From: Desulfurococcaceae archaeon
Lineage (GTDB): Archaea; Thermoproteota; Thermoprotei_A; Sulfolobales; Desulfurococcaceae
Assembly: GCA_023269825.1 (NCBI GenBank)
Contig: JAGDWI010000003.1
Span: 124,001 to 188,000, forward strand
Length of the DNA: 64,000 bases
Direction: 5' to 3'
Below, piece after piece: positions 3,461-60,751 of this stretch. Below the pieces are notes generated by a model. The model was not told where the DNA came from, did no database searches, and was given only the letters and a program-made list of their open reading frames with translations. Position numbers and translations under genes: made by a program. Every line of letters begins with the position of its first letter. Position 1 is the stretch's first letter.

Positions 3461-4021
3461 TCACGGTTTCCACCAGTTAAAGACAAGGTATTTTACGTCG
3501 CTTCCATCTTCCTTAACAATGGCTATTACTAGTTTCTTTCTAACGGAATGCAGTAATCTACCGGCTCTAACTAGTTCTACTGGGTCAATTATCTCGCTAT
3601 TAGTATATACTAGGACCCCGAATGGGGCGTGATCTATTCCCGGCCCATGCCTATATATCATGTAATCGCACCCGAATTTTAATCCTCGTCTAACTACGAA
3701 TCCTCTTTTCTTTAAGTCAACGTATACACGGTATAAGGCTGAGAACTTGTTTACTCTTAATTCACCAATCTCCAGTAATTCCTTCCAACTCAGTATTTTT
3801 CCATTCTCAATTACGTTGATGAGATTTTTCTCGGCTAGGTATACTGCTTCTATAATTGAAAGCTCTAAAGGAGATTTTATGTCCCTGCTTCTTGGTTTAT
3901 TTACTCCGAGAAAAGTTCCATGATATCCTTTCCAGTATAATTCGTTTCCACACTCATAGTCGAATACTACTACTCTATTTCCGAGTAGAAACCCGTAGCA
4001 ACTCTTATTTTCTTTTTCTAT
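3461..4021 (-). CDS. endA: tRNA-intron endonuclease, catalytic subunit (apparent ATA start)
   Basis: This enzyme cuts the bulge-helix-bulge at tRNA exon-intron junctions. The translation from base 4021 gives 186 residues, the usual length of an archaeal EndA subunit. It has the N-terminal domain (LLGNRVVVFDYE, ELYWKGYHG) and the catalytic domain with YRHGPGIDHAPFGV, and the lysine in SVRKKLVIAIV, so the Tyr/His/Lys triad appears complete. No ATG, GTG or TTG exists in frame between the stop at 4058-4060 and an internal ATG at 3661, which would remove two thirds of the protein. The best start is ATA at 4021-4019. It follows GAGGT by 7 bases and overlaps the upstream TAG stop as ATAG. Crenarchaeal EndA usually pairs with a second subunit, which is not seen here. 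Confidence 0.85.
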   Translation of the reverse strand: MEKENKSCYGFLLGNRVVVFDYECGNELYWKGYHGTFLGVNKPRSRDIKSPLELSIIEAVYLAEKNLINVIENGKILSWKELLEIGELRVNKFSALYRVYVDLKKRGFVVRRGLKFGCDYMIYRHGPGIDHAPFGVLVYTNSEIIDPVELVRAGRLLHSVRKKLVIAIVKEDGSDVKYLVFNWWKP

Positions 4022-4698
4022 GTTGCCGACCTCGCTATTGCGAGATACCGTACCTCCTCACCGACGTTTTTCAGGAAATCGCTTATTTCCTCTAAGTGTT
4101 CAAATATGTCTTTAAGTATTAGTAGAGCTGTAATGTATCCCGAGTACCTAGCATATATTTCAAACAAGCTCTTCCTGTATATTGTGTCTATTTTCTCCTC
4201 TGTTTCGAAGACACTACTTATTATTCCTAGTACTGCTTTAGGTGAGAGCCTTATTTTCATGAACGCGTCTTCTAGGTCCTGTACTTGTTTCTTCTCAATT
4301 TCAATTATATTTATGAAAGTGTCTAATACGTCTTTGTCTAATAACACCTTATTCTCGTGTGCCAAGTATACTCTGTACGCTACACCATCTATTTGTTGAA
4401 GGACTCTATCAAGAGTTCTTATAATGTTTATAAAGCTAGATGAGTAGAATACTACCTCACTGCTTTTAATAAGGTACTCCATTATGAGAACAACTAGTTC
4501 CTCGCCTTTGTTCTTGATGTTTCTTACTTTTTCATATATTTTCCCTAGGTCTCCCCCTCCTTTTCCTTCCTGGTAAACTTTCAGCATTAAGTTTAATTCG
4601 CTCATTTCATCTCTAACTATTCTACACATGTTGACAATGTGTTCTATCGCTGTCATTTCCACGAGTGATTCTCGCCTCTCTTCAATCATCTCAATCAC
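4018..4698 (-). CDS. PhoU-like / DUF47-like helical protein
   Basis: The 226-residue protein is almost entirely alpha-helical, with heptad-like acidic and hydrophobic repeats. It resembles the DUF47/PhoU-like family, which is often linked to phosphate transport control. I see no transporter gene nearby, so the role here is open. The gene is directly upstream of endA and shares the bases ATAG with it, so the two are probably translated together. The GTG start at 4698 is listed. An ATG nine bases inside (4689) is equally possible, since GTGA lies just before it. Confidence 0.65.
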   Translation of the reverse strand: MIEMIEERRESLVEMTAIEHIVNMCRIVRDEMSELNLMLKVYQEGKGGGDLGKIYEKVRNIKNKGEELVVLIMEYLIKSSEVVFYSSSFINIIRTLDRVLQQIDGVAYRVYLAHENKVLLDKDVLDTFINIIEIEKKQVQDLEDAFMKIRLSPKAVLGIISSVFETEEKIDTIYRKSLFEIYARYSGYITALLILKDIFEHLEEISDFLKNVGEEVRYLAIARSAT

Positions 4699-57522: not shown

Positions 57523-57774
57523 ATGAGTGTCTGCGTAGAATACAGGTTGAAATTGAACTCTGAGAGAACTCTTAGATCTCTACTGGAATCGCTTTCACCA
57601 GAACTAAGAAATCTACCGAGCGATTGCAGTGGTCAAATGTACTTGGAGAAAGATAACTACTTAGTCATTAAACTAGAATGCGTTAACGCTGGGAAAATAA
57701 GAGCATTAAACAATAGTTTTATAGGTGTTATGTTAATGTTATTGGAATTAGCAGGTGAAATTAAGAATGTCTGA
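57523..57774 (+). CDS. Pcc1-type KEOPS subunit (paralogue 2)
   Basis: The 83-residue protein is a small alpha/beta protein of the Pcc1/CTAG type, ending in a helix (RALNNSFIGVMLMLLELAGEI). Its place before prefoldin beta is the classical Pcc1 position in archaea, so it may be the original Pcc1 and the one at 46003 the paralogue. Sequence similarity is low, so this rests on length, pattern and context. Confidence 0.75.
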   Translation: MSVCVEYRLKLNSERTLRSLLESLSPELRNLPSDCSGQMYLEKDNYLVIKLECVNAGKIRALNNSFIGVMLMLLELAGEIKNV

Positions 57775-58135
57775 GAAAACGCTTCCACCGGAAGTTCAAC
57801 AATTATTGATTCAGTATCAAACTCTAAGAGAACACCATTCAAGAATCGATGCCGAGTTAAGAATTATTGAAGCAGAGTTGAGTGAAATAGAAAACATCAT
57901 GGATACCTTGAAAAACCTTGGTGCTGATGCAGAGTTATATAAAGCTGTTGGCCACATACTCGTGAAGAAATCAAAAGCAGAAGTAACAAAAGAGCTTGAA
58001 GAGAGAAAAGAGCTACTAATCATTAAGAGAGACAAGTACAAGAAACAACTCGATTTCTTAACCAAGCAGATTAATGACATAGAAAATAAGCTTAGGGAAA
58101 CACTCGCTAAGTACGGTATAACTGCTCCTCGGTGA
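57767..58135 (+). CDS. pfdB: Prefoldin beta subunit
   Basis: Prefoldin is a jellyfish-shaped chaperone with two alpha and four beta subunits. The two long coiled-coil helices flank a short hairpin (NLGADAELYKAVGHILVKKS), as expected. ATG at 57767 gives 122 residues, overlapping the Pcc1-type gene by 8 bases; a GTG at 57755 is in frame. Its stop is part of the tandem duplication at the next start. Confidence 0.95.
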   Translation: MSEKTLPPEVQQLLIQYQTLREHHSRIDAELRIIEAELSEIENIMDTLKNLGADAELYKAVGHILVKKSKAEVTKELEERKELLIIKRDKYKKQLDFLTKQINDIENKLRETLAKYGITAPR

Positions 58136-58154
58136 GTAAACGCTGAGTAAACAC
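58131..58154 (+). repeat. 11-base tandem duplication at the DUF3194 start
   Basis: TGAGTAAACGC (58133-58143) is followed at once by TGAGTAAACAC (58144-58154), differing at one base. The first copy contains the prefoldin stop TGA. The duplication puts the original-looking GTG (58132) out of frame with the gene downstream. Confidence 0.85.
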
Positions 58155-58460
58155 GGTAGAGAAAAAGAATACTTAGAAATACTCAAGAATATGTCGGATG
58201 ATGAACTCGAAGAACTAGTCACTATTGTAGAAAAAGAGACTAGTGAGTACTTGAAACAATTGCTTCCACCGAAAACAGATTTCAACGTTTCCGTTAGTAT
58301 TGAGAAAACCGGTGAAGCTGTTAACGTATCAATCGATGTAACAATAAGAGGTAGACTACAAGAGTACCGTGAAGAAGCTAGAGACGCTGTAAATTACGCT
58401 AAGAGAAAACTAGTTAAAGTACTTGAATCAATGAGAAATAAGTTTATAAAATATGATTGA
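58143..58460 (+). CDS. DUF3194 family protein, apparent CTG start
   Basis: This small family sits beside prefoldin beta in archaea and has unknown function. The core is LEELVTIVEKETSEYL, then a beta hairpin (DFNVSVSIEKTGEAVNVSIDV) and a C-terminal basic helix. The ATG at 58191 gives 89 residues but has no ribosome site. The frame continues upstream to a CTG at 58143, with GGTG 8 bases before it, giving 105 residues (SKHGREKEYLEIL added). A GTG at 58132 would start the frame if the 11-base repeat were single. So the start is CTG or the downstream ATG. Confidence 0.7.
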   Translation: MSKHGREKEYLEILKNMSDDELEELVTIVEKETSEYLKQLLPPKTDFNVSVSIEKTGEAVNVSIDVTIRGRLQEYREEARDAVNYAKRKLVKVLESMRNKFIKYD

Positions 58461-58540: not shown

Positions 58541-60751
58541 ATGGTTAAATATAAGCAAACTGCAGATGTACTCAAAATAATGAAGAATGTGGAGTATATT
58601 AGAAATATTGGAATAACAGCTCACGTAGACCACGGTAAAACAACGCTATCTGATTCCCTACTAAGCGCTGCAGGACTCCTCTCGGAGAAATTGGCTGGGC
58701 AAGTACTAGCATTAGACTACCTTGATATCGAGCAGAAAAGGCAAATGACTGTTAAAGCAGCAAACGTGAGCTTATACCACGAATACCATGGAAAACCATA
58801 CGTTATTAACTTAATTGATACACCTGGACACGTAGACTTCCAGTCGAGAACCCTTAGAGCTCTTAGAGCAATAGATGGTGCTATAGTAGTTGTTGACTCC
58901 GTGGAAGGCGTAATGACTCAAACTGAAATGTACCTTAGAGTTGCACTAGAGGAACGCGTTAAACCAATATTATTCATAAATAAGATCGATAGGTTGATAA
59001 AAGAACTAAAGCTCTCGCCAACGGAAATTCAGCAAAGACTGGTTCAAATAGTTAAAGACATTAACACACTCATCGCTAACTACGCTGATAAAGAGTTTCA
59101 GAAAGCATGGTTACTGGATCCAGCGAAAGGCCAAGTAGCATTCGGCTCAGCTAGAGATCGATGGGGTCTCACGATTCCACTTGCCGCACAGAAAGGCATA
59201 AAGATCAGCGATATCATAGACATCTATAACAGAGGAAAAGATGCCGTAGCAGAGTTACAGAAAGCTGCACCACTACATGAAGCAATATTAGATATGGTCG
59301 TAAAGTTTACACCCAACCCGAAAGAAGCACAGAAGTATAGAATCCCGAAGATATGGCATGGTGACATGAATAGTGAAGTAGCGAAATACATGATGGAGTG
59401 CGATCCTAATGGACCATTGGTAATTATGGTTACAGATGTAAAGGTGGATCCTCACGCAGGCATAGTAGCTACAGGGAGAGTATTCTCAGGTACACTTAAA
59501 CCCGGTGAAGAAGTATACCTTGTAAACGCTAAAACGCTTCAAAGAGTACTCCAAGTAAGTCTCTACATGGGTCCATACAGAGAGCTCGCTGATGAAATAC
59601 CAGCAGGAAACATTGCCGCCGCTCTAGGTTTAGATAAAGCGAGATCGGGTGAAACAATAGTATCAAGTATACTGAAAGACTCTGTGGTTCCATTCGAGAA
59701 AATGAGAATGATTACTGAATCCGTTGTAACAGTTGCTCTTGAACCAAAGAATCCCCAGCAACTCACGAAACTCATCGATTCACTCTATAAACTCCACTTA
59801 GAAGACCCAAGTCTCATTGTTAAGATAAACGAAGAGACTGGCGAGTACTTGTTAAGCGGTGTAGGCACGTTACACATTGAAATAGCTCTCACATTACTTA
59901 AAGACATCTATGGATTAGATGTAGTTGCATCTCCACCTGTAATAGTCTACCGTGAAACTGTGAGAAACGAGAGCCAGATATTTGAAGGGAAATCACCCAA
60001 TAAGCACAATAAATTCTACATTAGCGTGAAGCCGCTCGATGAAACTACAATTAAGTTAATACAGGAAGGACTAGTAAGCGAGGACATGGATCCACGCGAG
60101 AGAGCTAAGATCCTTAGAGATCACGCTGGCTGGGATACTGATATGGCTAGAAGAATAATGACTATTGATGAAAATATAAACATATTCGTAGACTTAACTA
60201 CGGGTGTACAGTATCTTAGAGAAGTAAGAGATACCGTTATACAAGGATTCAGACTAGCTATGAGAGAAGGGCCATTAGCACAAGAACCAGTAAGAGGGCT
60301 CTTAGTTGTTTTACATGACGCGGTGATACACGAGGATCCAGCTCACAGAGGACCTGCGCAAATATATCCAGCAGTGAGAAACGCTATATTCGCTGGAATG
60401 TTGACGTCGAACCCCACGCTACTAGAACCCATATTAAAACTCGACATTAGAACCCCATTGGAATATGTTGGAAACCTATCAGTTGTGATTACTAAGAAGC
60501 GTGGCAAAATCCTAGATATACAGCAATCAGAAAACCTAGCTAGAGTCATGGCCGAAGTTCCAGTAGCAGAATCATTCGACGTAGCAGACATGTTAAGAAA
60601 CGCTACAGCCGGTAAAGCCATCTGGGGCCAAGACTTCAGTAGATGGGCTCCTGTTCCAGACTCTCTACTCATGGATCTAATAGCTAAGATCAGGCAGAGA
60701 AAAGGATTAAAACCAGAACCACCAAAGCCGGAGGACTTTCTAGGGCCTTAA
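58541..60751 (+). CDS. fusA: Elongation factor 2
   Basis: EF-2 moves tRNA and mRNA through the ribosome. G1 HVDHGKTT is at 28-35, G3 DTPGHVDF and G4 NKID are present, and 736 residues cover all five domains. The segment [18 protein letters not shown] near 605-620 contains the histidine modified to diphthamide. ATG with GGTG 7 bases upstream. The following 264-base gap (60752-61015) shows no gene I can support. Confidence 0.98.

Follow-up and report, generated by a model that had tools for sequence, protein, structure and literature searches.

A CTG codon as the probable start of a DUF3194-like gene in a Desulfurococcaceae archaeon and its closest relatives

In the genome of a Desulfurococcaceae archaeon (GCA_023269825.1), the reading frame of a DUF3194-like gene opens without an ordinary start codon, which raises the question of where its translation begins. 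The frame lies in a 64,000-nucleotide stretch of contig JAGDWI010000003.1 (positions 124,001 to 188,000, forward strand), referred to below as the window, and all coordinates are counted from its first letter. After a TAA at 58137-58139, the frame reads ACG CTG AGT AAA CAC GGT AGA GAA AAA GAA TAC TTA GAA ATA CTC AAG AAT ATG, the last codon being the internal methionine codon at 58191-58193 (plus strand) that a table-11 caller would choose as the start. Scanning this frame in the window upstream of ATG 58191 revealed no ATG, GTG or TTG. The initial annotation had noted that the frame offers CTG 58143, well spaced from a GGTG, beside an 11-base tandem duplication, and had proposed either CTG initiation or a start-site rearrangement still under way. 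To this end, the DUF3194-like gene was compared across the genus; all eight genus genomes were searched, and the gene was present in each of them.

Gene neighbourhood and protein family

The DUF3194-like gene (58143-58460, plus strand) comprises 105 codons counted from CTG, with a translation beginning MSKHGREKEYLEIL, and its relatives align from residue 1. It is placed between the gene for the prefoldin beta subunit (57767-58135, plus strand; taken from the list of open reading frames, with Pfam PF01920, Prefoldin_2, at E 8.8e-19) and that for elongation factor 2 (EF2; 58541-60751, plus strand), which was named from its ORF translation without a family search. The gene order of the cluster is Rrp42-like, L37Ae-like, Brix, Pcc1, prefoldin beta, DUF3194 and EF2-like. 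Pcc1 and prefoldin were the only members to pass the Pfam cut-off and the support for Brix was weak; the Rrp42-like, L37Ae-like, Brix and EF2-like members carry names taken from their ORFs.

As a single sequence, the window protein scored 17.8 bits (E 0.0044) against DUF3194 (PF11419), which is below the curated Pfam cut-off of 21.5 bits, and a PF11419 search of the window's genome gave zero matches above that cut-off. PF11419 was matched at E<=0.1 by 6 of 16 aligned homologues (best E 4.4e-5), and a profile of these 16 homologues matched PDB 3UEB (TON_0450; E 2.3e-9) and 1PU1 (MTH677; E 3.1e-6). By profile comparison, the window protein is related to DUF3194 through these intermediates. The fold predicted from a three-sequence alignment (pLDDT 85) resembled 3UEB with a TM-score of 0.65 and a probability of 0.94, and residues 3-16 formed a confident helix in it (pLDDT about 88, same alignment). 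The likeness to TON_0450 and MTH677 thus consists in the profile match to both and the predicted fold similar to 3UEB, whereas the difference lies in a weak Foldseek E-value (0.51) and in the single window protein falling under the DUF3194 cut-off.

Conservation of the CTG codon and its Shine-Dalgarno element

CTG AGT was found at the identical position in five of the eight genus genomes: that of the window (G000), its sister G007, and G003, G004 and G006. The codon at 58143-58145 (plus strand), the predicted start, is invariant among them (5 of 5), and three of the five have no alternative canonical start for 20-24 codons. A tree of four proteins (EndA, prefoldin, DUF3194 and EF2) placed the five CTG species in a monophyletic group, with G005 next and G001 and G002 outside. 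The homologous codons outside the CTG clade are ATG CTG in G005, GTG TTG in G002 and CTA TTG in G001. The five CTG species are related, and the conservation therefore does not amount to five independent observations.

The invariance of the first codon is not what would be expected of a leucine codon. In the same frame, internal leucine codons vary across the five species (TTA/TTG/CTT/CTA/CTA at codon 11 and CTC/CTT/CTG/CTT/CTT at codon 14), and CTG makes up 4-8% of leucine codons. We compared leucine codons in 59 orthologue sets from G000, G007, G003 and G004. At 75 conserved leucine positions that are CTG in G000, CTG was also found at 10 in G007, 1 in G003 and 6 in G004, and at 0/75 in all four. 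Since none of these codons was kept across the four genomes, the behaviour of the invariant CTG is unlike that of a leucine codon.

A Shine-Dalgarno (SD) element, GGTGA at 58131-58135 (plus strand), lies 7 nt from CTG 58143, inside the usual spacing of 4-7 nt, so that the spacing remarked on in the initial annotation holds. The prefoldin beta stop codon, TGA 58133-58135 (read CCT CGG TGA, 58127-58135), is contained in this element. In all five species of the clade GGTG(A) is present 6-7 nt upstream of CTG, as GGTG in G003, G004, G006 and G007. GGTGA pairs with GGATCACC, the 3' end of 16S in relatives from the genus, and matches the 16S end given as GGATCACCTC. An archaeal 16S covariance-model search of the window's own assembly gave no match, and the pairing rests on the relatives; this assembly is without a detected 16S rRNA gene although it consists of only 3 contigs with a completeness rating of 97%. 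Counted by codon type, 11% of CTG codons were preceded by an SD element versus 21% of ATG and 20% of TTG, a measure too blunt for CTG starts.

Candidate start sites of the DUF3194-like gene

We consider it very probable that the gene initiates at CTG 58143, with the ribosome positioned by GGTGA 58131-58135, and that the CUG start is ancestral to the five-species clade. A ribosome terminating on prefoldin, or a free 30S subunit, would bind GGTGA and start at CUG with Met-tRNAi. Termination on prefoldin beta and translation of the gene are probably coupled. The initiator tRNA would read CUG through near-cognate pairing, and the product would begin Met-Ser-Lys-His-Gly-Arg. Initiation at CUG is probably weak, and the expression level would be low. 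Among 313 first canonical starts preceded by an SD element in stretches of G000, G003, G004 and G007, 133 were ATG, 115 TTG and 65 GTG; TTG is nearly as frequent as ATG. Because about a third of the SD-preceded starts are TTG (115/313), a U-to-C change in a TTG start would be an easy route to CTG. Sequence comparison establishes that CTG and its SD element are conserved, that the N-terminus is coding and in which order the events took place.

The main rival to CTG initiation places the start one codon upstream, at ACG 58140 (ATA in G003, G004 and G006), as a decayed ATG that is still used, with CTG as the second codon. Such a history is suggested by the ATG CTG of G005 and by the fact that both ACG (G000 and G007) and ATA are one change away from ATG; in addition, endA of this genome apparently begins at ACG. 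The preceding codon nevertheless varies, and CTG is invariant beyond the behaviour of leucine codons (0/75), an invariance which a start at the upstream codon leaves unexplained. The SD element would also be poorly spaced, at 3-4 nt from this codon; a distance of 3 nt is seldom seen (9 of the 313 SD-preceded starts). We therefore regard the upstream codon as an unlikely start.

A start at ATG 58191, with the upstream frame untranslated and open by chance, is highly improbable. In G000 no other canonical start lies close to where the frame opens, and ATG is also present in G007, but the position is leucine (CTC/CTA/CTG) in G003, G004 and G006, and these three of the five species would then be left with no start. 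Their first ATG, GTG or TTG follows 20-24 codons downstream, and no SD element lies upstream of ATG 58191. Furthermore, third-position changes predominate in codons 2-16 across the five species, with REKEYLEIL-like residues preserved. Judged by this pattern, codons 2-16 evolve as coding sequence, and a product from ATG 58191 would be missing the first predicted helix. CTG initiation, as suggested by the initial annotation, is thus strongly supported by CTG in the five closest species together with an SD element and a coding N-terminus, and by the lack of conservation of ATG 58191.

The tandem repeat, which the same annotation had reported, was confirmed letter by letter: it spans 58133-58154 (plus strand) and consists of TGAGTAAACGC (58133-58143) and TGAGTAAACAC (58144-58154), identical at 10 of 11 bases. 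GTG 58132-58134 overlaps the prefoldin stop and reads GTG AGT AAA CGC TGA; reading the sequence also bore out that this GTG meets TGA after four codons with two copies and would be in frame with one. Deleting one copy therefore restores an in-frame GTG 58132, as would be expected if a recent duplication had broken an ancestral GTG start and the rearrangement were still in progress. This reading has very little probability, and the claim of a rearrangement in the act was not upheld. The repeat is unchanged letter for letter in the sister genome G007 (L001/L004: ctcggtgagtaaacgCTGAGTAAACA), which shares 68% protein identity, and among all eight genus genomes it is confined to this pair; G003, G004 and G006 have CTG without the repeat and without the overlapping GTG, and the tree places CTG before the repeat. 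Restricted to G000 and G007 while CTG is also found in G003, G004 and G006, the repeat is old but younger than CTG, and the presence of CTG in three related species without it means that the CTG start does not owe its origin to the duplication. From this distribution, the repeat is a later by-product on the branch to G000 and G007 and not the cause of the CTG start, which would already have been in place as the ancestral state of the five species. The initial annotation had named a combination that would speak against its reading, namely relatives that carry this duplication and whose product starts at ATG only. Of this combination, the duplication was found in G007 and nothing indicates an ATG-only product. 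Tandem 11-mers with at most one mismatch occurred at 2 places in the window versus 0-3 in five mononucleotide shuffles, and the repeat by itself is thus without significance and notable for its position only.

A protein without its own start, arising by frameshift or readthrough out of prefoldin, has next to no probability despite the overlap of the two genes at the SD element in G000 and G007, as each of the five species has a stop in frame (TAA or TGA) 1-4 codons ahead of CTG, which rules out such a fusion, and in G003, G004 and G006 the prefoldin gene terminates well before CTG is reached.

Near-cognate starts elsewhere and known systems

In a scan of 209 genes that have relatives, homology reaching beyond the first canonical start in the upstream direction was conspicuous only for DUF3194, endA and one HerA-like ATPase frame. 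The tRNA-splicing endonuclease gene endA (3461-4051, minus strand; PF01974 E 2.1e-28, PF02778 E 4.7e-15) has a probable ACG start at 4051-4049 behind GGTGA 4062-4058, and its frame in the window holds no ATG, GTG or TTG before the conserved domains. Of the 31 family genomes, 30 have ACG at this junction, 29 of them with the full motif GGTGA-6nt-ACG; the pattern is nearly always GGTGA-(A/G)GANNT-ACG. The exceptions are G015, which keeps ACG without GGTGA, and G010, in which the junction is lost. Part of this conservation belongs to the upstream gene (GEE-I/L/V-R), because that gene overlaps the junction. The arginine codon that supplies the ACG is CGN in 30/30, whereas CGN otherwise makes up 16-22% of arginine codons and was kept in all four genomes at 42 of 738 conserved arginine positions. 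As the overlapping codon stays CGN in all 30 despite the rarity of CGN, the comparison indicates that endA likely starts at ACG. The HerA-like ATPase frame (G000:C3:365964-367088, minus strand, outside the window; named from sequence) showed homology to G004 upstream of its first canonical start and may represent an unusual start or a truncated gene.

Starts at CUG are on record in prokaryotes, though at very low frequency: in 36 genome triplets, 2 AUG-to-CUG switches were counted among 61,358 AUG starts and 1 UUG-to-CUG switch among 2,468 UUG starts (Belinky et al. 2017, PMC5622118). As proposed here, CUG stands in place of AUG, GUG or UUG in those cases. They involve solitary changes from one close genome to another, whereas here one CUG is kept across a five-species Desulfurococcaceae-like clade. 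AUG, GUG and UUG are the start codons named in a review of archaeal initiation (PMC7531240), and no description of a DUF3194 CTG start emerged from our literature searches on DUF3194 and on archaeal CUG/CTG starts. CUG starts are already known as a rare kind, to which the DUF3194 CTG, judged by its conservation, adds a well-supported case. Other non-canonical starts, those of infC (AUU) and Streptomyces sigR (GUC), are under IF3 control (PMC5472188). The DUF3194 start is similar in being non-canonical and conserved; in infC and sigR this is tied to initiation fidelity. The latter two are bacterial and experimentally shown, whereas the DUF3194 CTG start is proposed from comparing sequences. Archaea have aIF1 in place of IF3. 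We considered aIF1 as a self-regulating near-cognate gene and rejected it, as aIF1 has an ordinary ATG in the window and the genus; because of this ATG in the window, no IF3-like autoregulation is visible.

Tentatively, we suggest that the lineage may retain near-cognate starts over the long term as a selected low-efficiency setting, with CUG in DUF3194 (the five-species clade) and ACG in endA (almost the whole family), each behind GGTGA at the junction with an upstream gene. If so, how much protein is made would hinge on start-codon fidelity (aIF1) and on the coupling of translation. In prokaryotes, starts at CUG or ACG are great rarities that tend to be regarded as isolated or doubtful, and retained cases would, on comparative evidence, provide clear testable examples of archaeal near-cognate initiation. 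Gene callers that use table 11 (ATG/GTG/TTG) would cut DUF3194 short, and endA could be shortened or overlooked by them.

The usual sequence among homologues from the window's family is TTG GTT AAG or a variant of it, spanning the prefoldin stop. Genus g17, which belongs to another family, has CTG GTT AAG there in each of its four matching genomes, with no canonical start; at these loci (L103-L106 in G057, G081, G037 and G083) CTG is codon 9 of the open frame, and the first 50 codons hold no canonical start. The g17 CTG gives weaker support, because the four genomes are close and the CTG lies within an alanine codon of the prefoldin frame. At one further locus, L117 (G084), the DUF3194 frame runs without a canonical start for 42 codons and has GCG where its siblings have GTG.
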